Below, in pieces: positions 3,730-15,448 of a stretch of DNA of 64,000 nucleotides (position 1 is its first letter; each line of letters starts with the position of its first letter). Location of the stretch: contig NZ_JACHNU010000009.1 of assembly GCF_014199525.1 (NCBI RefSeq), positions 89,350 through 153,349 of the forward strand, in the 5' to 3' direction. The notes under the pieces were generated by a model, which made no database searches, was not told the origin of the DNA, and worked only from the letters and a program-made list of their open reading frames with translations. Made by a program: the position numbers and the translations under genes. The DNA is from Conexibacter arvalis. GTDB lineage: Bacteria > Actinomycetota > Thermoleophilia > Solirubrobacterales > Solirubrobacteraceae.

Positions 3730-5715
3730 TCAGGCCGCGTCGGCCCAGTGCGCGGCGCTGCGGCGGCGCAGCAGCGCGCGGTACTGCTCGGTCGTGCGCG
3801 GCAGCAGCTCGCCCGTCCCCCAGTCGAGGATCACGCCGTGGTGGCGGACGAGGTCGAGCACGTCCAGCTCGCCGTTGCGGTAGCGGGCGGCAACCTGCTC
3901 GGGGTCCTCGTCGAGCCAGCCGGGCCGCTCGGCCCGCTGGCGCTCGCGCAGCGCCGCGGTCGCCTGCTCGTCGACGCGGAAGTCGCAGATCTCCGCGTCG
4001 ACCTCCTCGACGACGACGCCGTAGTCGCGCGCCGCGCGCGCGACCGTGACGTAGCCGTCGATCACGTCCTCCAGCACCTCGGCCGGGTCGCGCTCCAGCG
4101 GGTCGCCGTAGCCGCCGCCGCCCGCGGAGGGACGCTCGAAGCGATCGCCGGGGCCGACGGCGACGCCGGAGAAGTTCGCGCCGAGGAAGCGCTCTCTCGC
4201 CGTCCCCCGGTTGAGCCAGACGCCGTGCGGCAGCGACGGCAGGCCGCCGGCGATCCCCCACGCGACCGAGCGCGAGCGGTCGCAGCAGTACGACATCACG
4301 CTGCTCTCGACGGCCGTCAGCTCGCCGCCCTTGCGGACGCCGCAGCCGCCGCGGTGGAGGCCGGGGCCGCCGGAGTCGGGGATGATCTCGTGGACGGTCG
4401 TCAGCACCGGCGTCAGCCGCTCCTGACCCTCCAGCGGCTGGACGGCGAGCCCGACGCCGAAGACCGGCGAGGTCGCGTTCTGGCCGTCCTTGCCGTTGCG
4501 GCCGCCCCAGCCGCCGGCCATCCAGTCGTACCACATGAAGTACGGCCGCTCGTCGATCCGCCCGTCGCGGCCGCCGATCAGCAGGTACTCGAGGTTGAAG
4601 CAGCAGGCCATCGCCCGCTCGGGCAGCAGCTGCGACCACAGCTCGAAGCCGGCGTTCATGATCTTCTCGTAGGCGCCCGAGACGCAGCCGGTGACGGCGT
4701 TGGGCCAGCCGGCGTTGACGACCGTCCCCTCCGGACCGACGTCGACCTTGATCGCGCGGTAGAAGCCCGAGTTGAGCGGGATCTCCGGCAGGAACGTCTT
4801 CGCCGAGGCGATCGCGCCCGAGAAGGCGACGCCGGCGCCGGAGTTGAGGAACGAGGCGATCGCCGGGTCGCTGCCCGACAGGTCGTAGCGGATCTCGTCG
4901 CCGTCGATCGTCATCTTGACGCGGATCGCGACGAGCCCCTCCCCTCTCGCGGGGTCGGCGTCGACGTGGTCCTCGGTCTCCCAGACGCCGTCGGGCAGCT
5001 CGGCGATGCGGGCGCGCGTCAGCCGCTCGACGTAGTCCTGCACCTCCGCGAAGGCGGTCGTGACGGTCGCGGTGCCGTACTTGTCGATCAGGCGGAAGAC
5101 CTCCTGCTCGGCGATCCGCGTCGCCTCGACCTGGGCGTGGCAGTCGCCGACGATGTCGCCCGGCGCGCGGGTGTTGTGGGCGACGAGCCCGATCACGTCG
5201 TGGCGCACGACGCCTCTGTCGACGATCCGCACCGGCGGGATGCGGACGCCCTCGCCGAAGTGGTCGGTCGCGGAGACGTCGAAGGAGCCGGGCGTCCCGC
5301 CGCCCATGTCGGCCCAGTGGCCGTTGGCCTGCGCCATCGCGATCAGCTCGCCGTCGACGAAGATCGGGCGGACGATCGAGACGTCGGAGAAGTGGGTGCC
5401 GCCGCGGTAGGGGTCGTTGACGGCGAAGACGTCGCCCTCGTGGATGTCGCCGGCGAAGTCCTCCAGCACCGCCTTCGCCTTCAGGTGGAGCGTGCCGACG
5501 TGGACGGCGATGTCCTGCGACCCCTGCATGATCGTGTTGCCCTCGGCGTCGCACAGCGCGCACGAGAAGTCGCGGGCGTAGATGACGAACGAGTGACAGG
5601 TGCGGAGGATCTGCTCGGCCATCTCGTCGACGAGCGTCACGAACGAGTTCTTCAGCACCTCGAAGGTGACCGGGTCGAGCGTGCCGCCCGCGGGCGTCTG
5701 CGTCTGCGAGGCCAT
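3730..5715 (-). CDS. hyuB: Hydantoinase B / oxoprolinase family protein HyuB
   Basis: This 661-residue protein belongs to the HyuB family (N-methylhydantoinase B, 5-oxoprolinase C-terminal half, acetone carboxylase alpha). It starts LDPVTFEVLKNSF, typical of the family, and contains the segments DPYRGGTHFSDV and NPGGGG-like glycine loops near the C-terminus (SAGGGGYGDP). With HyuA it forms an ATP-dependent enzyme that opens a cyclic amide ring such as hydantoin or 5-oxoproline. The frame stays open upstream of this ATG, but the start chosen is 2 bases after the hyuA stop, as expected for coupled translation. Substrate specificity cannot be read from sequence. Confidence 0.9.
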   Translation of the reverse strand: MASQTQTPAGGTLDPVTFEVLKNSFVTLVDEMAEQILRTCHSFVIYARDFSCALCDAEGNTIMQGSQDIAVHVGTLHLKAKAVLEDFAGDIHEGDVFAVNDPYRGGTHFSDVSIVRPIFVDGELIAMAQANGHWADMGGGTPGSFDVSATDHFGEGVRIPPVRIVDRGVVRHDVIGLVAHNTRAPGDIVGDCHAQVEATRIAEQEVFRLIDKYGTATVTTAFAEVQDYVERLTRARIAELPDGVWETEDHVDADPARGEGLVAIRVKMTIDGDEIRYDLSGSDPAIASFLNSGAGVAFSGAIASAKTFLPEIPLNSGFYRAIKVDVGPEGTVVNAGWPNAVTGCVSGAYEKIMNAGFELWSQLLPERAMACCFNLEYLLIGGRDGRIDERPYFMWYDWMAGGWGGRNGKDGQNATSPVFGVGLAVQPLEGQERLTPVLTTVHEIIPDSGGPGLHRGGCGVRKGGELTAVESSVMSYCCDRSRSVAWGIAGGLPSLPHGVWLNRGTARERFLGANFSGVAVGPGDRFERPSAGGGGYGDPLERDPAEVLEDVIDGYVTVARAARDYGVVVEEVDAEICDFRVDEQATAALRERQRAERPGWLDEDPEQVAARYRNGELDVLDLVRHHGVILDWGTGELLPRTTEQYRALLRRRSAAHWADAA

Positions 5716-5717
5716 CG

Positions 5718-7766
5718 TCAGCTCCCCTCCGTGATGTGCATGCGGATGTTCAGCCACTCGTCGATCTCGACCAGCACCCCGGGCGGGACGAAGGTCGTCG
5801 TGTCGAGCTGGTCGATCACCGCCGGGCCGACGAACTGGACGCCGGCCGGCAGCGCCGCGCGGTCGTAGACCGGCGTCTCCTGCGGCTCCTCCTCGCCGTC
5901 GAACCAGACCGGGCGGACGGCGGCCGGCGCCGGCAGCGACGCGCCCGCCGCGGCGTCGTTGCGCGGCAGGCGGACCTCCTCGGTGCGGCCGATCGCCGTC
6001 AGCTGGAGGCGGTACAGCTCGACCGGCGCGTCGTCGCGGCGGTAGGAGAACTCGCGCTCGTGCTCGGCGTGGAACCGCTCGACGGCCGCGGCGAGGTCGC
6101 CGCCGGACTCGACCGGGACGTCCATCGAGCGCCACTGGCCGAGGTAGCGCATCGCGATCGAGCGCTCCAGCGCGATCCGCTCGTCGCCGACGCCCTCGTC
6201 CCTCAGCAGCCTGCGGCCCTCGGTCTCCAGCCGGCCGAACGCCTCCTCGAGCGCGTCGGGATCGGCGGCGTCGGCGGGCGTCAGGAACATCTCGGAGAGG
6301 TCGTGGCGGATGTCGACCATCAGGCAGCCGAGCGCCGACCATGCGCCGGGCCGCGGCGGCACGACGACCGTCGGGACCGACAGCTCCCTCGCCAGCGCCG
6401 CGCCGTGCAGCGCGCCGGCGCCGCCGAAGACGACGAGCGCGAACTCGCGCGGGTCGTAGCCCCGCTGGAGCGAGATCAGGCGGACGGCGTCGGCCATGTT
6501 GGCGTTGGCGACCTCGATGATCGCCTTCGCCGCCTGCTCGACGCCGAGCCCGAGCGGCTCCGCGATCCGGCTGCGGATCGCCTCGCGGGCCTTGTCGGCG
6601 TCGAGCGTCATGCCGCCGCCGACCAGCTCCGAGCCAAGGCGGCCGAGCACGAGGTTGGCGTCGGTGTTGGTCGGCTCCTCGCCGCCGGCGCCGTAGCAGG
6701 CGGGACCGGGGAGCGAGCCGGCCGACTGGGGGCCGTTGCGGAGCGAGCCGGCGCTGTCGATCGTCGCCAGCGAGCCGCCGCCTGCGCCGATCGTCAGCAC
6801 CTCGATCGACGGGAAGCAGATCGGGTAGCCGTACTCGACGAACCATTCGTTGGTGGTGCGCAGCTCGCCGTCGTGGACGAGCGAGATGTCGGTGCTCGTC
6901 CCGCCCATGTCGAGCCCGATCGCGTTCGGGTAGCCGCACAGCTCGGCGGTGTAGCGGCAGGCGACCGCGCCGGCGGCGATGCCCGACGCCGCGAGGCGGA
7001 CGGAGAGCTTGTCGACCGCCTCCGGGGTCATCACGCCGCCGCCGGAGTGGAGGATCAGCAGGTCGCCGTCGTAGCCGTCGTCCTGCAGGCGGTCCTCAAG
7101 CTCGTTGACGTAGCCGGAGACCAGCGGGGAGAGGACTGCGTTGGCGACGGTCGTCGAGAAGCGCTCGTGCTCGAACAGCTCGGGCAGGACGCCGGAGGAG
7201 GTCGAGATCGCCGCGTCGGGCAGCGCCTCGCGCAGGATCTCGGCCATCCGCTCCTCGTGCGCGGGGTTGGCGTAGGCGTTGACGAAGCAGACGGCGACCG
7301 CCTGGACGCCGCGGCGGGCGAGGATCCGGGCGACGTCGCGCGCCGCCTCCTCGTCGAGCGGCTCGACGACCCTGCCGGTCTGGTCGACGCGCTCGCCGAC
7401 CTCGAGCCGGTCGCGCCGCCTGATGTACGGCGCGGCGTTGTCCTTGTAGGCGTCCCACAGGTCGTCGCGCGTGCCGCGGCGGATCTCGATCACGTCGCGG
7501 AAGCCCTTCGTCGTGACCATCGCGGCCGGCGGCAGGCGCCGGGTGATGAGCGCGTTGGTCGCGACCGTCGTGCCGTGGCAGAAGAGCGCCACCTCGCTCA
7601 GCTCGACGCCCGCCTGCGCGACGCCTCTCAGCACGCCGTCGATCGGGTCGGGGGTCGAGGGCACCTTCGCGACGTCGAGCACCCCGCTGCCCTGGTCGAG
7701 CACGCAGACGTCGGTGAACGTCCCTCCGACGTCGACGGCGACGACCGTTCCGGTCACTCTCTCCAT
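5718..7766 (-). CDS. hyuA: Hydantoinase A / oxoprolinase family protein HyuA
   Basis: This 682-residue protein is the ATP-binding subunit partner of HyuB. The N-terminus carries the ASKHA-type phosphate loop VDVGGTFTDV (residues 9-18), and a second nucleotide-binding region reads GLDMGGTSTDISLV. The glycine-rich VFGGAGALHG segment is also typical. It is the first gene of the minus-strand operon hyuA-hyuB-permease. The divergent PucR-type regulator starts about 185 bases away and is the likely controller. The length is normal for bacterial HyuA. Whether the substrate is hydantoin, N-methylhydantoin, 5-oxoproline or another ureide is open. Confidence 0.92.
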   Translation of the reverse strand: MERVTGTVVAVDVGGTFTDVCVLDQGSGVLDVAKVPSTPDPIDGVLRGVAQAGVELSEVALFCHGTTVATNALITRRLPPAAMVTTKGFRDVIEIRRGTRDDLWDAYKDNAAPYIRRRDRLEVGERVDQTGRVVEPLDEEAARDVARILARRGVQAVAVCFVNAYANPAHEERMAEILREALPDAAISTSSGVLPELFEHERFSTTVANAVLSPLVSGYVNELEDRLQDDGYDGDLLILHSGGGVMTPEAVDKLSVRLAASGIAAGAVACRYTAELCGYPNAIGLDMGGTSTDISLVHDGELRTTNEWFVEYGYPICFPSIEVLTIGAGGGSLATIDSAGSLRNGPQSAGSLPGPACYGAGGEEPTNTDANLVLGRLGSELVGGGMTLDADKAREAIRSRIAEPLGLGVEQAAKAIIEVANANMADAVRLISLQRGYDPREFALVVFGGAGALHGAALARELSVPTVVVPPRPGAWSALGCLMVDIRHDLSEMFLTPADAADPDALEEAFGRLETEGRRLLRDEGVGDERIALERSIAMRYLGQWRSMDVPVESGGDLAAAVERFHAEHEREFSYRRDDAPVELYRLQLTAIGRTEEVRLPRNDAAAGASLPAPAAVRPVWFDGEEEPQETPVYDRAALPAGVQFVGPAVIDQLDTTTFVPPGVLVEIDEWLNIRMHITEGS

Positions 7767-7950: not shown

Positions 7951-9629
7951 GTGATCACGCTCGCGGAGCTGTTGGCGCGGCGGGAGCTGGGGCTGCGCGC
8001 GGTCGCGGCGGCCGGCGACGCCGACGGCGTGGTGCTGCGCGGCGCGGAGGTCTGCGAGCTGCCCGACCCGCGCCCGTGGCTCGACTCCGGCGAGCTGCTG
8101 CTGACGACCGGCGTCGCGCTCGGCCACGGCGCGCACGGGCAGCGGCTGCTGGTCGAGCGGGCGGTCGAGGCGCGCGCGGCCGGGATCGGCTTCTCGATCG
8201 GCCTCGTGCACGCCGAGGTCCCCGACCCGGTGCGCGAGTCGTGCGAGCAGCTCGGGCTGCCGCTGATCGCGATCCCCGCGGCGACGCCGTTCCGGATGGT
8301 CGTCGAGGCCGTCAGCGGCCGCGCCGCGCCCGGCGAGCACCAGGCGGCGCAGCGGACGCTCGCGATGCAGACCTACCTGATGGAGGCGCTCTCGGCGCCC
8401 GAGCCGGAGGCCGAGCTGCTGCGGCGGCTCGGCTCGCTGCTGAGCGGGACGGCGCTGCTCGCCGACGAGGCCGGCGCGGTCGAGGGAGCGCCGAACGCGG
8501 CGCTCCCGCAGGAGCTGTGGGGGCCGCTGCGCGGCGGCAAGGGCGTGCGGCTCCACCACGTGCGCGGTGTCCGCTACGTGAGCGCGCCGGTCGCCGACCG
8601 GATGGGCGCCCGCCGCTGGCTGGTCGTCGCCGGCCCGGCCGACGCGCTGCCCGACCGGCTCGCGCGCGGCGCGCTGCAGAGCGCCGAGAAGCTGGCGCGG
8701 CTGATCGACCGCGCCCGCCCGCCGCGGCCGGCCGAGGCGCGCGCGGTGCGCGCCGAGCTGGCCGCCGCGCTGCTCGGCTGGCGCGACGCCGGCGACCGCC
8801 GCCAGCTCGCCCACCGGGCGGCCGCGCTCGGCCTCGGCGTCGACGAGCCGCTGCACGTCGCGGTGCTGCGGCTGCGGGGGGGGCGGGTGCCGGCGCGCGT
8901 GTCGCGGGCGGTTCCACGGGCGGCGACCGACCGCGCGGCGTGCCGGCGCCCTCGGGCGAGGCGCGCTCGCAGCTGCTGGCGCGCGTGCGCGACGAGGTCG
9001 AAGGGCGGATGACGACCGCGCCGCTCCCGTTCCTGGCCGCGATCCACGACGGCGACCTCGCCGTCGTGGCGCCGTCGGCGGCCGAGGCGGTGCTGCGCGG
9101 GGCGCTGGACGAGCTGGCGGCGGGCGGCGTCGTCGCCGACATGGGCGTCGGCCGCGCCGCGCCGAGCCTCGACGGCCTCCCCCGCTCCTGGCTCGACGCC
9201 CGCTTCGCCGTCGTCCAGCTCGCCGCCGTGCCCGACGACGACGCGACGCCGCCCGGCGGCGAAGGCGCCAGACGCGCCCGCCGCGCGGCCGGCCCCGCCC
9301 CGCGCACGCTCAGCTACGACGACTTCGACCTCGCGACGACCGTCGTCTGCGACGCCGCCCCGCCCGCGCTCGCCGCACGCCGCGCGACGCTCAGAGACGA
9401 CCAGCTCGACGGCGCCCTGCGCGAGACGCTCGACGCCTACCTGGCCCACCGCCTCGACGTCCCCCGCACCGCCGCGGCGCTCCACCTCCACCCCAACTCC
9501 GTCCGCTACCGCCTCCAGCGGATCGAGCGCGAGCTCGGCCGCTCGCTCGACGACCCCGTCACGATCGCCAACCTCTACCTGGCGACGCTCGTCGACCGCG
9601 CGGGCGGGGCGGGCGGCGGGGAGGGCTGA
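7951..9629 (+). pseudogene. PucR-family transcriptional regulator interrupted by a frameshift
   Basis: Two frames together make one PucR-family regulator of about 559 residues. The N-terminal purine-catabolism domain starts ITLAELLARRELG and contains LLLTTGVALG; it reads in one frame to about 8880. The central part and the C-terminal helix-turn-helix (TAAALHLHPNSVRYRLQRIE, near 9470-9530) read in another frame to TGA at 9627-9629. The switch falls at a run of eight G (8876-8883); one extra G would restore the frame. The gene faces away from the hyu operon and probably regulates it. It may be a real mutation, a phase-variable tract or a sequencing error. GTG 7951 is the chosen start; GTG 7918 is possible. 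Confidence 0.75.
8876..8883 (+). other. G8 homopolymer at the PucR frameshift
   Basis: Eight consecutive G bases lie exactly where the PucR reading frame changes. A run of nine would give one continuous protein. Homopolymer slippage in the cell or a base-calling error would each produce this. Confidence 0.8.
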
Positions 9630-11098
9630 GCCGGCGCCGCCGCCCGGTCGATCGTCGCCCAGCCGATCACGAGGTCGCCGTCCATCAGGCAGGCGGTCTG
9701 GCCGGGGGCGGCGCCGTCGACCGGCTCCTCGAGCGCGATCTCCAGGCGGCGGTGACTGCCGGGGGCGGGGTCGCCGAGGAGGCGCGCCGGGAGCGGCTTG
9801 GCGCGGTAGCGGAGCTTGACGCGGTCGACGCGGGCGCCGTCGCGGTGGAGGCGGGCGCCGCGGACGGGGACGGTGCGGGTCTGCAGCTCGGCGCGGGTGC
9901 CGGCGACGACGCGGTTGGCCGCCGCGTCGGTCCGCAGCACGTACAGCGGCTCGGCGGCGGCGACGCCGAGGCCTCTGCGCTGGCCGACCGTGTACGCCTG
10001 GTGGCCGGCGTGGCGGCCGATCACCGTGCCGTCGCTGTCGACGATCTCGCCGGGCATCTGCTCGATCCCGGCGTGGCGGGCGAGGAACGCCTGACGGCTC
10101 GTGCCGGCGAGGAAGCAGAGGTCCTGCGAGTCGGCCTTGCTCGCGACCGGCAGCTCGGCCTCCCGCGCCAACGCGCGCACCTGCGGCTTCGTCAGCTCGC
10201 CGAGCGGGAAGCGCATCCGCGCCAGCGACGCCGGCGCCAGCGCGGAGAGCATGTAGGTCTGGTCCTTCCACGCGTCGACGGCGGCGCGCAGCAGCGGGCC
10301 GCGCTCGGCATCGTGCTCGACCCGCGCGTAGTGGCCGGTCGCGAGCGTCGCGGCGCCGACCCGGTCGGCCAGCTCCAGCATCGCGTCGAGCCGCACGTGG
10401 CCGTTGCAGCGGACGCACGGGTTGGGCGTGAGGCCGGCCCGGTGGTCCTCCAGGAACGGCGTCACGACGCCGGCGCGGAACTCGGCGCGCAGGTCGAGCG
10501 TCAGGTGCGGCAGCCCCATCCGGTGCGCGAGCCCGCGCGCGTGACGGACCGCCTGCGCCGAGCAGCACGAGCGCTCGTCGTCGTTCTCCTCGTCGGCCCA
10601 CAGCTCGAGCGTGACGGCGACGGCGTCATGGGCGCTCGCGCACAGCAGCGCGGCGACGGCGCTGTCGACGCCGCCCGACATCGCGACGAGCGTCCGCTCC
10701 GAGCCGTCGGCCGGCGCAGGCAGCGCGCCGCGCTCGCGAACCGCGGCGCCGAGCGCCCGCGCGAGCGCGTCGGCGACCAGCTCGGCGGCGTGGAACTTGC
10801 CGGCAGACAGCCCGCCCAGCTCGGCCGCGACCTCGTGCGCGCCGATCCGCGCGGCGTCGAGCACGCCGATCCCCTCGACCAGCTCGGCGACGGCGCTCAG
10901 CGACGCGACCGTCGCGCCGCACGCCTCCGCCTCCCAGCCGATCGCGCCGACCCGCTCGCCGGCGTCGTCGAGCGCCAGCGTCAGCCGCACGACGTCGCCG
11001 CACAGCCTCGTCCCGGCGACGCCGAGCGCGCCGCCCTCAGGCGCCCGCCCGCGCCCGTGGCGGGAGGTCAGATGGTGCTCGAACAGCTCGGGATCCAC
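9575..11098 (-). CDS. mnmA: tRNA 2-thiouridylase MnmA fused to an N-terminal IscU/NifU-like domain
   Basis: The C-terminal 370 residues are MnmA, which thiolates U34 of Lys, Glu and Gln tRNAs. They show the PP-loop SGGVDSA (141-147), the catalytic Cys in NPCVRCNGHVR, and the second Cys in DSQDLCFLAG. Residues 1-125 resemble an iron-sulfur scaffold: CGDVVRLTL (Cys33), EACGATVAS (Cys60) and GKFHAAEL (His103). The third scaffold cysteine, normally right after that His, is Ala here. Total 507 residues against about 360 for ordinary MnmA. The GTG at 11098 starts the conserved region; the frame stays open further upstream. The 3' end overlaps the convergent PucR gene by 55 bases. Confidence 0.9.
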   Translation of the reverse strand: MDPELFEHHLTSRHGRGRAPEGGALGVAGTRLCGDVVRLTLALDDAGERVGAIGWEAEACGATVASLSAVAELVEGIGVLDAARIGAHEVAAELGGLSAGKFHAAELVADALARALGAAVRERGALPAPADGSERTLVAMSGGVDSAVAALLCASAHDAVAVTLELWADEENDDERSCCSAQAVRHARGLAHRMGLPHLTLDLRAEFRAGVVTPFLEDHRAGLTPNPCVRCNGHVRLDAMLELADRVGAATLATGHYARVEHDAERGPLLRAAVDAWKDQTYMLSALAPASLARMRFPLGELTKPQVRALAREAELPVASKADSQDLCFLAGTSRQAFLARHAGIEQMPGEIVDSDGTVIGRHAGHQAYTVGQRRGLGVAAAEPLYVLRTDAAANRVVAGTRAELQTRTVPVRGARLHRDGARVDRVKLRYRAKPLPARLLGDPAPGSHRRLEIALEEPVDGAAPGQTACLMDGDLVIGWATIDRAAAPAQPSPPPAPPARSTSVAR

Positions 11099-11169: not shown

Positions 11170-11194
11170 AGCGGCCGCGACTCGCGCGGCCGCT
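11170..11194 (-). terminator. Hairpin downstream of the secreted protein gene
   Basis: AGCGGCCGCG and CGCGGCCGCT form a perfect 10-base-pair stem with a 5-base loop. It lies 9 bases beyond the stop of the minus-strand gene at 11204. There is no T tract. A second hairpin (GGCCGCGG-TCG-CCGCGGCC) lies near 11121-11139. Confidence 0.55.
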
Positions 11195-11203
11195 CGCCTC
11201 ACG

Positions 11204-12268
11204 TCAGCCCCGGACCTGGAGGTTGCGCCAGGTCTCGCGCGGCTTGACGCAGTAGACGTTGTCGCCGGTGTGCCACACGTCGCGGCCGTAGCGGACGCAG
11301 TAGTTCCAGTACTCCGCGTTCGAGTAGCCGCCGACGAGGGCGTAGATCCGCCGCGTCGGCGTATGGGAGGTGCGGACGACGAAGCGGCCCTTGCGGAGCG
11401 TGCGCCCGACCGCGACGCCGCCGGCGGTCAACCGTCCCTGCGCGATTCTGAAGCTGTACTGGGTGATGCCGGTGCGGGCCGGGGTCAGCGGGATGAAGTG
11501 AAGCGTCCCGTCGTCGGCGCGCAGGCGCAACCCGGCACCTCTGCCACCGCGCTTCCAGCCCTCGCAGGGATCGCTCGAGCTGACGGTCGTCCAGCGCGCG
11601 GTCCCCTGGCGCCGCACCGAGAAGACGAACGGCTGCGCGCTGTAGCGGCGCGCGCAGCCGGACGGCCGCCGCATCCGCACCTGCGCGTCGGCCTGCTCGC
11701 CCCACGCCTCCTTGAAGGTCCAGATCGTCGGCTTCGGCTGCCGCACGCCCTCGATCACCGGGACGGTGGCGGTCACCGTCCGCCGGCAGGTCGTCGTCAG
11801 CCCGCCGTAGAACTCGACCCACCCCTCCTCGATCAGCTCGCGGATCTCCTGCTCCGACATGTCCCACGGCTCGCCGTCCTCGCCCCAATCGGTCACCTGG
11901 TGCTCGAGGTAGCTCAGCTCGACGTCGACCGGTCCGCTCCCGTAGTCGGCGACCAGCCAGAACGAGTCGTACTGGCCGGTGTCGAGCGTGTCGTCCCACT
12001 CGACCGCGCCGCGCTTGAAGCGCAGCGTCGCCTTCTGTCTCGGCGCCGACAGCGCCGTGCTCGAGCGCTTGCGCACCGGCACGTCATACCAGCGGTATCT
12101 GACGATCTGATCGGGCAGCCGCATCGACAGGAGCGACGCGGGCTCCGGGGCGCACTGCGGCTCCTGCGCGGCCGCGGAGGCCGGGACGATGAGCGCGGCC
12201 GCGACGGCGGCGGCGAGCGCCGCGCGGAGCGCGGCGGCACGGGGGAACATACGTTCGGGATGGCGCAT
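11204..12268 (-). CDS. Secreted protein of unknown function
   Basis: This 354-residue protein begins with a clear signal peptide: basic residues, an Ala/Leu/Val-rich core, then an ASAAAQ cleavage site near residue 33. The mature part has several cysteines (for example TTTCRRT, SSDPCEGW, NYCVRYG, VYCVKP) that could form disulfides, and many Trp and Tyr residues, so an extracellular folded domain is likely. I do not recognise the family. It lies between aspS and mnmA on the minus strand, separated from both by hairpins, so it is probably a single-gene unit. ATG 12268 is the chosen start; ATG 12250 (MFPRAA) is equally possible, since neither has a good ribosome site. Confidence 0.75.
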   Translation of the reverse strand: MRHPERMFPRAAALRAALAAAVAAALIVPASAAAQEPQCAPEPASLLSMRLPDQIVRYRWYDVPVRKRSSTALSAPRQKATLRFKRGAVEWDDTLDTGQYDSFWLVADYGSGPVDVELSYLEHQVTDWGEDGEPWDMSEQEIRELIEEGWVEFYGGLTTTCRRTVTATVPVIEGVRQPKPTIWTFKEAWGEQADAQVRMRRPSGCARRYSAQPFVFSVRRQGTARWTTVSSSDPCEGWKRGGRGAGLRLRADDGTLHFIPLTPARTGITQYSFRIAQGRLTAGGVAVGRTLRKGRFVVRTSHTPTRRIYALVGGYSNAEYWNYCVRYGRDVWHTGDNVYCVKPRETWRNLQVRG

Positions 12269-12310
12269 GGGCGCTGGCACGCTACCACTCGGCCGACCGC
12301 GCCGCCATTA

Positions 12311-12380: not shown

Positions 12381-14198
12381 CTAGGAGGTGCTCGGCGCCG
12401 CGGCGCCGGCCGCCCGCGCCGCCTGCTGGGCCTTGACCTCGGGCGCGACGCCGAGGCCGACGTCGCGCAGCTGCGCCTCGTCGACCGGGGCCGGGGCGCC
12501 GGTCAGCGGGTCGGTGCCGCTGGCGGCCTTCGGGAAGGCCATCGCGTCGCGGATCGTCTCGCGGCCGGCGAGCAGCGCGACGATCCGGTCGATCCCCATC
12601 GCGATGCCGCCGTGCGGCGGGGCGCCGTACTTGAGCGCGTCGAGCAGGAAGCCGAAGCGGGCCTGCGCCTCGTCCGCGTCGATGCCGAGGATCGCCAGCA
12701 CCTGCTGCTGCACCTCCGGCGTGCTGATGCGGATCGAGCCGCCGCCGATCTCGGAGCCGTCGAGCACGAGGTCGTAGGCGCGCGAGCGCAGCGAGCCGGG
12801 GTCCGACAGGTCGCCGGTCGGCGCGGTGAAGGGATGGTGGAGCGCGTTCCAGGCGCCGTCGTCGCCCTGCTCGAACATCGGGAAGTCGACGACCCAGAGG
12901 ATGTCGTGGCGCCCTTCGGGCACCAGCCCGAAGCGGTCGGCGAGCTCGAGCCGCAGCGCCCCGAGCGCCTGGGCGGCGATCGCGGCCCGGTCGGCGACGA
13001 TCAGCAGCAGGTCGCCCGGCTTCCCCTCCAGCGCGCCGGTCACCGCCGCGATCTCCTCCGCCGAGAGCGCCTTGGCGACCGGCGAGCGCCACGTGCCGTC
13101 CTCCTGCACGAACGCCCACACGAGGCCCTTCGCGCCGTGCTGTCTGGCCAGCTCGGTGAGCGCGTCGAGCTCTCTGCGCGGCAGCTCGCGGGCGCCCGCG
13201 TTCAACCCGCGGATCACCCCGCCGGAGGCCAGCGCCCCGGCGAAGACCTTGAACGCCGTCCCCTCGAACAGCGGGCCCAGCTCGCTGATCTCCAGCCCGA
13301 AGCGGGTGTCGGGGCGGTCGGAGCCGAACCGCAACATCGCCTCGTCGTAGCTCATCCGCGGCCACGGCGCCGGCGCGGCCTCGAGGCCGCCGGCGGCGAA
13401 GACGGCGCTCATCACCGCCTCCATCGTCTCGATCACGTCGTCCTCGTCGACGAACGACATCTCGAGGTCGAGCTGCGTGAACTCCGGCTGGCGGTCGGCG
13501 CGCGAGTCCTCGTCGCGGAAGCAGCGGGCGATCTGGAAGTAGCGCTCGAAGCCGCCGATCATCAGCAGCTGCTTGAACAGCTGCGGCGACTGCGGCAGCG
13601 CATAGAAGCTCCCGGGCTCGATCCGCGCCGGCACGAGGTAGTCGCGCGCGCCCTCGGGCGTCGAGCGGGTCAGGCTCGGCGTCTCGATCTCGAGGAAGTC
13701 GCGCTCGGTCAGCACCGCGCGCATCGTCTGGGTGACGACGTGGCGCAGCTTGATCGCCTCCTGCATCCCGGCGCGGCGCAGGTCGAGCGCGCGGTGGCGC
13801 AGGCGCAGCTCCTCGTTGACCGGGCCGTCCTCGTCGATCGGGAAGGGCGGCGTCTCGGCGGAGGCATGGACGATCAGCTCGTCGACGGTGACCTCGATCT
13901 CGCCGGTCGGGATGTTCGGGTTGACGTTCTCCGCGTCGCGGCGGGTGACCGTCCCGACCGCCGTCAGCACGTGCTCGGAGCGGAGCGAATGGGCCAGCCT
14001 GTGGGCCTCGGGCGCGCGGTCGGGATGGAAGGTCAGCTGGACGATGCCGGAGCGGTCGCGCAGGTCGATGAAGATCAGGCCGCCGTGATCGCGGCGCCGG
14101 TGGACCCAGCCGGCGACGCGGACCTGCTCGTCGGCGCGGGCGGCGGTCAGGTCGCCCGACCAGGCGTCGCGGTAGCGGTTGGGCCGCGGTGTCCTCAT
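12381..14198 (-). CDS. aspS: Aspartyl-tRNA synthetase
   Basis: This 605-residue class II synthetase charges tRNA-Asp. The N-terminal OB-fold anticodon-binding domain reads VAGWVHRRRDHGGLIFIDLRDRSG. The bacterial-type signature GARDYLVPAR, motif 2 around RCFRDEDSRADRQPEFTQLD and motif 3 GIAMGIDRIVALL are all present. Length is normal for bacterial AspRS with the GAD insertion. The ATG overlaps the hisS stop (ATGA), so the two genes are coupled. It ends the cluster and is followed by two hairpins. Whether it also charges tRNA-Asn cannot be told here. Confidence 0.97.
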   Translation of the reverse strand: MRTPRPNRYRDAWSGDLTAARADEQVRVAGWVHRRRDHGGLIFIDLRDRSGIVQLTFHPDRAPEAHRLAHSLRSEHVLTAVGTVTRRDAENVNPNIPTGEIEVTVDELIVHASAETPPFPIDEDGPVNEELRLRHRALDLRRAGMQEAIKLRHVVTQTMRAVLTERDFLEIETPSLTRSTPEGARDYLVPARIEPGSFYALPQSPQLFKQLLMIGGFERYFQIARCFRDEDSRADRQPEFTQLDLEMSFVDEDDVIETMEAVMSAVFAAGGLEAAPAPWPRMSYDEAMLRFGSDRPDTRFGLEISELGPLFEGTAFKVFAGALASGGVIRGLNAGARELPRRELDALTELARQHGAKGLVWAFVQEDGTWRSPVAKALSAEEIAAVTGALEGKPGDLLLIVADRAAIAAQALGALRLELADRFGLVPEGRHDILWVVDFPMFEQGDDGAWNALHHPFTAPTGDLSDPGSLRSRAYDLVLDGSEIGGGSIRISTPEVQQQVLAILGIDADEAQARFGFLLDALKYGAPPHGGIAMGIDRIVALLAGRETIRDAMAFPKAASGTDPLTGAPAPVDEAQLRDVGLGVAPEVKAQQAARAAGAAAPSTS

Positions 14199-15448
14199 GC
14201 CAGCGTCTTCCCCTTCTTCAGCACGACCGGGATCACCCGGCCGGGTTCGAGCTCGTCCTGTTCTCCGGTCTCCATGTCCTTCAGCGTCGCGCCGTCGGGG
14301 CCGACGATCGCGACGAAGCGGGCGCCGCTGCGGTCGGCCTGCTTCAGCTGGCCCTTGAGCGAGCGGCCGGCCAGCTCGAACTGGGCCGAGAGACCGGCGC
14401 GCCGGGCCTCCCAGCAGAGCTCGAAGCCGGTCGCGCGCCCCTCCGGCGCCGCGTAGGCGACGTAGAGGTCGAGCAGCGGCGCCGGCACCGGCTCCTCGCC
14501 GGCCGCCAGCAGGATCCGCTCGATCCCGGCCGCCCAGCCGATGCCGGGCGTCGACGGGCCGCCGATCTGCTCGATCAGCCCGTCGTAGCGGCCGCCGCCG
14601 CCGACGCCCGACTGGGCGCCGAGCGCGTCGCTGGTGAACTCGAAGAGCGTGCGCGCGTAGTAGTCGAGGCCGCGCACGAGCGTCTTGTCTACCTCGTAGG
14701 CGAGGTCGGCGCCGTCGAGCAGCGCCCGCACCTCGGCGAAGTGGTCGAGGTCCTCGGCCGAGAGGTGGTCGAGCAGCCGCGGCGCCCCCTCCATCACGGC
14801 CTTCGTGCCGGGGTGGTCGGCGTCGAAGGCGCGCAGCGGGTTGAGGTCGATTCGCGCGCGGACCTCCTCGGAGAGCTGGTCCTCGTGGTCGCGCAGGTAG
14901 CGCTGCAGCAGCTCGCGGTAGGCGGCGCGCGTCTTGGGCGTGCCGAGCGAGCCGAGCCGCAGCCGCACGTCCCTCACGCCGAGCGACTCGAGCAGCTCGG
15001 CCAGCAGCAGGATCGACTCGGCGTCGACGGCCGGGTCGGCGGAGCCGATCGCCTCGGCGCCGACCTGCCAGAACTGGCGGTAGCGGCCGGCCTGCGCCCG
15101 CTCGTAGCGGTAGAAGCTCGACAGGTACCACAGCTTCACCGGCTGCGGCAGCTTCTGCATCCCGTGCTCGAGGTAGGCGCGCGCGACCGGCGCCGTCCCC
15201 TCCGGGCGCAGCGTCACGGAGCGGCCGCCGCCGTCCTCGAAGGTGTACATCTCCTTCTGGACGATGTCGGTCGAGGCGCCGACGCCGCGGGCGAACAGCT
15301 CGGTCGCCTCGAAGGTCGGGGTCTCGATCCGGCGGTAGCCGGCCGCGCCAAGGATCCGGCGGGCGGTCGCCTCGACGTGGTCGCGGCGGACCGCGTCGTC
15401 GGGCAGCACGTCGTAGGTGCCGCGCGGGGCTTGCAGCTTCTTGCCCAT
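14195..15448 (-). CDS. hisS: Histidyl-tRNA synthetase
   Basis: This 417-residue class II synthetase charges tRNA-His. It starts with LQAPRGTYDVLP, the usual HisRS beginning. Motif 2 is YRYERAQAGRYRQFWQVG; the HisA signature LVRGLDYYARTLFEF and motif 3 PGIGWAAGIERILLA follow. The C-terminal anticodon-binding domain ends normally. It sits 6 bases after the MBL gene and overlaps aspS by 4. The order glyoxalase-like MBL, hisS, aspS is a known conserved neighbourhood in actinobacteria and firmicutes. Confidence 0.97.
   Translation of the reverse strand: MGKKLQAPRGTYDVLPDDAVRRDHVEATARRILGAAGYRRIETPTFEATELFARGVGASTDIVQKEMYTFEDGGGRSVTLRPEGTAPVARAYLEHGMQKLPQPVKLWYLSSFYRYERAQAGRYRQFWQVGAEAIGSADPAVDAESILLLAELLESLGVRDVRLRLGSLGTPKTRAAYRELLQRYLRDHEDQLSEEVRARIDLNPLRAFDADHPGTKAVMEGAPRLLDHLSAEDLDHFAEVRALLDGADLAYEVDKTLVRGLDYYARTLFEFTSDALGAQSGVGGGGRYDGLIEQIGGPSTPGIGWAAGIERILLAAGEEPVPAPLLDLYVAYAAPEGRATGFELCWEARRAGLSAQFELAGRSLKGQLKQADRSGARFVAIVGPDGATLKDMETGEQDELEPGRVIPVVLKKGKTLA

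Follow-up and report, generated by a model that had tools for sequence, protein, structure and literature searches.

A NifU/IscU-type domain fused to MnmA in Thermoleophilia keeps four predicted metal ligands and lacks the persulfide-accepting cysteine

Introduction

How does sulfur reach the tRNA-thiolating enzyme MnmA in a bacterium that seems to have no NifS/IscS, and why would such an enzyme carry an IscU-type scaffold domain at its N-terminus? These questions are raised by a single gene in the window analysed here, a stretch of 64,000 nucleotides from Conexibacter arvalis (contig NZ_JACHNU010000009.1, positions 89,350 to 153,349). An earlier note, made from the letters of the window, described this gene as a fusion of an IscU/NifU-like domain with a complete MnmA, in which the last scaffold cysteine is replaced by alanine while the adjoining histidine is kept, and proposed that the domain could deliver sulfur or hold a cluster, replacing separate carriers. 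We have followed the fusion through its relatives, together with the desulfurases encoded in the same genomes.

Results

The fusion gene lies at 9575..11098 on the minus strand, as are all features given below, and the coordinates in the earlier note were correct. It starts with GTG at 11098 and encodes 507 amino acids followed by a stop codon; an upstream TTG at 11170 is unlikely to be the start, because relatives begin at the same VD(P/S)ELFEHHL. The IscU/NifU-type domain, assigned by Pfam, modelling and fold match, comprises residues 1-122 (10733..11098), with Pfam NifU_N on residues 17-117 (59.8 bits, cut-off 22). Three MnmA Pfam domains follow at residues 135-483, and the MnmA part as a whole (HUP, PRC-barrel and C-terminal barrel, by Pfam and fold match) spans residues 131-483 (9650..10708). 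The entire protein exceeds the NCBIfam cut-offs for MnmA (NF001138, 333.5 versus 284; TIGR00420, 283.1 versus 237); the domain assignment and the fusion given in the earlier note are correct. A second, unfused MnmA in the same genome was considered and rejected, as the sole other PF03054 match reaches 27 bits over 52 positions. Upstream of the fusion gene lie hisS and aspS (12381-15448), genes that in Clostridia also accompany the unfused nifS-nifU-mnmA operons. A 358-residue protein with a signal-peptide-like start is encoded at 11204-12280, in the interval that separates aspS from the fusion gene. Two large open reading frames at 3730-7766 resemble, by eye, the hydantoinase/oxoprolinase subunits HyuA and HyuB.

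A full-length model of the fusion (pLDDT 93.0, pTM 0.91) matched known MnmA structures over its C-terminal part (2hma, Z 40.9; E. coli MnmA-tRNA, Z 39.6). The PP-loop SGGVDS (residues 141-146; 10661..10678) and the catalytic cysteines C231 and C328 are all present and invariant in alignment A5. The pair C178-C179 (10562..10567), the CxxC formed by C228 and C231 (10406..10417) and Cys328 (10115..10117), which sequence comparison identifies as the third cysteine of CxxC-C and the equivalent of E. coli Cys199, make up the CC-CxxC-C motif of C-type MnmA. This motif, found in 149 of the 150 fused proteins, is shared with the C-type enzymes of Thermus thermophilus and Mycobacterium tuberculosis, which to our knowledge have no N-terminal IscU domain. 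By this motif the MnmA part is of the C-type (Fe-S), with a predicted [4Fe-4S] cluster of which C228 and C231 are putative ligands by homology. In T. thermophilus the enzyme of this type depends on Fe-S and needs a [4Fe-4S] cluster (reviewed in PMC8584467 and PMC11784392). The best MnmE match in the genome of the window (101 bits, to the GTPase domain) falls below the curated cut-off; the s2U at position 34 is therefore probably not accompanied by the side chain that MnmE/MnmG would add.

The N-terminal domain is predicted to have the fold of IscU. In a phmmer search against the PDB it matched Archaeoglobus fulgidus IscU (E 3.6e-13), and a model of the domain built from an alignment of 31 sequences (pLDDT 92.9, pTM 0.87) superposed on the same protein in the IscS-IscU complex (4eb5_C) with Z 20.8 and an rmsd of 2.0 over 126 residues, and on human ISCU2 with Z 19.7. 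Matches to SufU had Z of 15.9 and below, and those to SufE-type proteins Z of 7 to 8; the structural kinship with IscU on which the earlier note depended is thus borne out. The domain nevertheless scored well short of the NCBIfam equivalog cut-offs for IscU/NifU (TIGR01999, 42.3 versus 192.4; TIGR03419, 52.1 versus 187.9; TIGR02000, 47.3 versus 273.3) and for SufU (TIGR01994, 23.5 versus 92.5).

All three motifs singled out in the earlier note are present: CGDVV with C33 and D35, EACGATVAS with C60, and GKFHAAEL with H103, followed by A104 at the position of the IscU cysteine, just as had been noticed. The ligand positions were scored against Cys37, Asp39, Cys63, His105 and Cys106 of E. coli IscU, using as ruler a sequence that agrees with the PDB alignments. 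The corresponding codons in the window are Cys33 at 11000..11002 (IscU Cys37, SufU Cys41), Asp35 at 10994..10996 (IscU Asp39), Cys60 at 10919..10921 (IscU Cys63), His103 at 10790..10792 (IscU His105) and Ala104 at 10787..10789, which by comparison takes the place of IscU Cys106 and of human ISCU2 Cys138, the persulfide acceptor. The five-residue assembly site Cys-Asp-Cys-His-Cys is therefore incomplete, its fifth residue being Ala104, and for this reason we place the domain outside the strict IscU scaffold family. A SufU-like four-ligand site including the first-loop Cys and Asp is complete (C33, D35, C60, H103), with histidine as the fourth ligand where SufU has cysteine.

Compared with IscU and the N-terminal domain of NifU (A. 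fulgidus IscU 4eb5, human ISCU2 and the Clostridium-type NifU of TIGR03419), the fused domain is alike in fold and length, four of the five assembly-site residues agree in position and identity, and in unfused relatives the NifU gene likewise adjoins mnmA. It differs in having lost the acceptor cysteine (Cys106/Cys138), in an LPPxK motif reduced to LSAGK and in being joined to MnmA. With the zinc-binding SufU of Bacillus subtilis and M. tuberculosis it shares a site of four metal ligands (predicted here), again including the first-loop Cys and Asp, and Zn-SufU works with SufS, the desulfurase type of the genome of the window. However, the domain is closer to IscU (Z about 20) than to SufU (Z about 16), in sequence as well, and it is fused to MnmA in a genome that also has a SufU of its own.

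Across 95 different sequences from families f1-f5 (f1-f4 constitute the order to which the window belongs) invariance is confined to five of the 121 domain positions, namely Cys33, Asp35, Cys60, His103 and Ala111, the domain being otherwise variable. The chance of finding the four named positions among five random ones is 6e-7, so that strong selection must act on the four-residue site in this lineage. In f1-f5 and f23 together (101 sequences) position 104 is always Ala, Gly or Val and never Cys; chance or sequencing error was rejected as the cause of the missing cysteine, which is lacking in every examined relative of the order.

The final His-Cys pair is complete in none of the 150 fused domains (102 have the His only, 19 the Cys only and 29 neither), counts which represent related sequences and not independent events. 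In unfused NifUs encoded beside mnmA the five-residue IscU site is the rule, 19 of 20 having both His and Cys. The exception, L238 from f23, lacks the cysteine, overlaps mnmA in another frame and groups with the fused f23 domains in a domain tree based on few columns; it could represent a fusion that has become split. Among fused domains the ligands are Cys-Asp-Cys-His in f1-f5 and f23 and Cys-Asp-Cys-Cys in f10, f11, f55 and half of f8; they have decayed in f9, f12, f16, f34 and the other half of f8. In family f7 some 75 residues are left of the domain, with neither the cysteines nor the histidine, in front of an intact MnmA. This remnant (L229, L042-L054 and other f7 loci) still ends in a conserved DALxxAL helix. 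As the patterns sit in different clades of the MnmA tree, several separate losses of His or Cys are likely.

The fusion itself is no local oddity of one genome, an explanation we rejected after examining 299 genomes of the class Thermoleophilia: f1-f5 carry it in full nearly throughout, and the short matches resemble contig ends or frameshifts. Its presence in relatives, on which the earlier note had staked its reading, therefore holds through most of the class. The fusion extends to other deep actinobacterial families, being found also in f23, f16, f55, f73, f34 and f72 among 396 genomes of the phylum.

Separate nifS, nifU and mnmA genes stand in a row in Clostridia (Desulfosporosinus L135 and L201; Thermoanaerobacteraceae L136) and in f29, f51 and f6, often with hisS and aspS near. 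In f10, f11 and f23 nifS is followed by the fusion gene, and at the loci examined in f1, f3, f5, f7, f8 and f9 there is no nifS beside the fusion and mostly hisS-aspS near. Comparison of these gene orders shows that the fusion joined nifU to the mnmA next to it in an ancestral nifS-nifU-mnmA operon. In the MnmA tree the fused families form two well-separated clades, and unfused sequences of f6 and some of f8 are nested among the fused ones.

For the desulfurase partners, a NifS profile was built from the operon genes and run on the genomes by family. Most genomes from f6, f8-f11, f16, f23, f29 and f55 gave scores of 391 to 643 bits, and six of eight f5 genomes gave 268 to 360 bits; in these a divergent NifS-like gene lies elsewhere. 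NifS/IscS was missing from all 24 f1-f4 genomes tested, the best profile matches (134-191 bits) lying in the range of SufS-type proteins, and scores were similarly low in six of seven f7 genomes. The best desulfurase in the genome of the window is SufS (NCBIfam, 553 bits versus a cut-off of 475; NifS, 139 versus 531). It adjoins SufC and a SufU that has the ligands Cys-Asp-Cys-Cys and scores 87.6 bits, slightly short of the cut-off of 92.5. The HPHD motif of this SufS, read from the sequence, contains the histidine with which SufU-type SufS performs the zinc swap. With NifS/IscS absent and SufS present, it is SufS that would be expected to supply MnmA with sulfur.

A simple rule by which loss of NifS entailed loss of the third cysteine was tried and rejected, since f23 has an adjacent nifS and yet no Cys, and most f5 genomes have the divergent NifS-like gene. 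In G004, G006, G012 and G018 (f8, f9) nifS lies beside a stand-alone nifU-like gene elsewhere in the genome. Most ligands are gone from the fused domain of f9, a decay that redundancy may have permitted.

Discussion

What the fused domain might do is best considered against its two closest models. Free ISCU2 binds metal through Cys69, Asp71, Cys95 and His137, and persulfide from NFS1 goes only to Cys138, a transfer that needs Asp71, Cys95 and Cys138 and for which Cys69 and His137 are dispensable (PMC11021402). The fused domain keeps exactly the metal ligands of this free state, and the acceptor residue is gone. In SufU, persulfide is instead taken on the first-loop cysteine once a SufS histidine has replaced that cysteine on zinc (PMC10216065).

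The reading we favour, at about even odds, is that the domain acts as a metal-bound docking and sulfur-acceptor module which feeds MnmA in cis, closer to Zn-SufU than to an Fe-S scaffold. The domain, in which the five-residue scaffold site is no longer complete but Cys33, Asp35, Cys60 and His103 are retained, would bind metal through these conserved residues and, once loaded, would dock a cysteine desulfurase, SufS in the order of the window; it may meet the desulfurase in an IscU- or a SufU-like manner. Persulfide would be taken on Cys33, as on the first-loop cysteine of Zn-SufU, or else the domain may only position the desulfurase, with the persulfide staying on the latter until MnmA takes it. 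Sulfur would then pass in cis to the C-type MnmA site, either Cys328 or the [4Fe-4S] cluster, to yield 2-thiouridine at tRNA position 34. Such putative delivery in cis is consistent with the history of the operon, with the gene content of the genome and with the invariance of the four ligands. More tentatively, and with rather less confidence than an even chance, the IscU scaffold could have become a metal-gated sulfur acceptor or SufS docking module on MnmA by dropping its acceptor cysteine. Because one of the His-Cys pair was lost in several lineages, fusion to a sulfur user may itself reshape the five-ligand Fe-S site into a four-ligand site for sulfur transfer.

There is a partial precedent in the apicoplast MnmA of Plasmodium falciparum, which likewise has a domain of a sulfur-acceptor fold in front of MnmA, proposed to take sulfur from SufS (PMC10219651); that domain is, however, SufE-like and not IscU-like, belongs to a eukaryotic organelle and is of independent origin. 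Other observations weigh against a delivery module. B. subtilis YrvO, a dedicated desulfurase encoded next to mnmA without a Tus relay, feeds MnmA directly and with no carrier (PMC5372745), although there the two are separate proteins and no IscU-type domain is involved. The greater nearness to IscU than to SufU, in sequence and in structure, counts against a SufU-like reading. MnmA can also do without the site, as f7, mostly lacking NifS, combines a ligand-free remnant with an intact MnmA, and the site is not specific to SufS, given that f23 combines an adjacent NifS gene with a domain of the same four ligands. The claim that the fusion replaces separate carriers was accordingly too strong, both in view of the f7 proteins and because the genome of the window keeps its SufU.

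A different possibility is that the domain assembles Fe-S clusters in cis, building or holding a [2Fe-2S] or [4Fe-4S] precursor through Cys33, Cys60, His103 and Asp35 and inserting it into the MnmA site. This would suit a C-type enzyme, of the kind that needs [4Fe-4S] in T. thermophilus (PMC8584467), as well as a domain that is IscU by sequence and fold match, and f10, f11 and f55 do keep three cysteines and the Asp. We nevertheless regard it as improbable, as the residue corresponding to the ISCU2 persulfide acceptor is lost in 101 of 101 sequences of f1-f5 and f23, all five assembly-site residues are described as essential in ISCU2 (PMC11021402), and some C-type MnmAs are unfused and have no domain of this kind. 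The cluster-holding role put forward in the earlier note is likewise less likely, because the lost residue is the one which takes the persulfide during cluster assembly in ISCU2 (PMC11021402). It is just as doubtful that the four residues hold a structural zinc, stabilising a domain that serves only as spacer, tRNA contact or desulfurase grip and leaves the sulfur untouched. Four-ligand Cys-Asp-Cys-His/Cys sites do suit zinc, and zinc-bound IscU and SufU are known (PMC10216065, PMC11021402). However, f9, f12 and f16 keep the fused domain with the ligands lost, hence the site is not necessarily required for the fold, and the rest of the domain is variable, unlike what would be expected of a fixed tRNA contact. 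That the domain is a functionless leftover of the fusion is plausible for the f7 remnant and for f9, f12 and f34, whose ligands are gone. As a general account it is very improbable, and for f1-f5 it appears already hard to hold given the conservation, with four ligands invariant in 95 sequences and one other position of 121 equally so.

A literature search found no paper on the MnmA-NifU fusion, most subscription papers lying outside its reach; we make no claim to have seen the fusion first, because domain databases are expected to list the architecture. As far as searched, the contrast in ligand pattern between fused and unfused forms, and its link with NifS-less genomes, are undescribed.

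The finding bears on the route by which sulfur reaches MnmA in bacteria that have neither a Tus relay nor an IscS/NifS partner. A whole order seems to be without NifS/IscS, yet the IscU domain built into its MnmA has four invariant residues that form a predicted metal site. Retention of these residues together with loss of the acceptor cysteine suggests that a former scaffold has become an integral part of the sulfur supply. The fusion also constitutes a natural experiment in which the metal-holding residues of IscU are separated from the persulfide-accepting one, and may therefore be used to test which part of IscU serves sulfur delivery and which serves cluster building.
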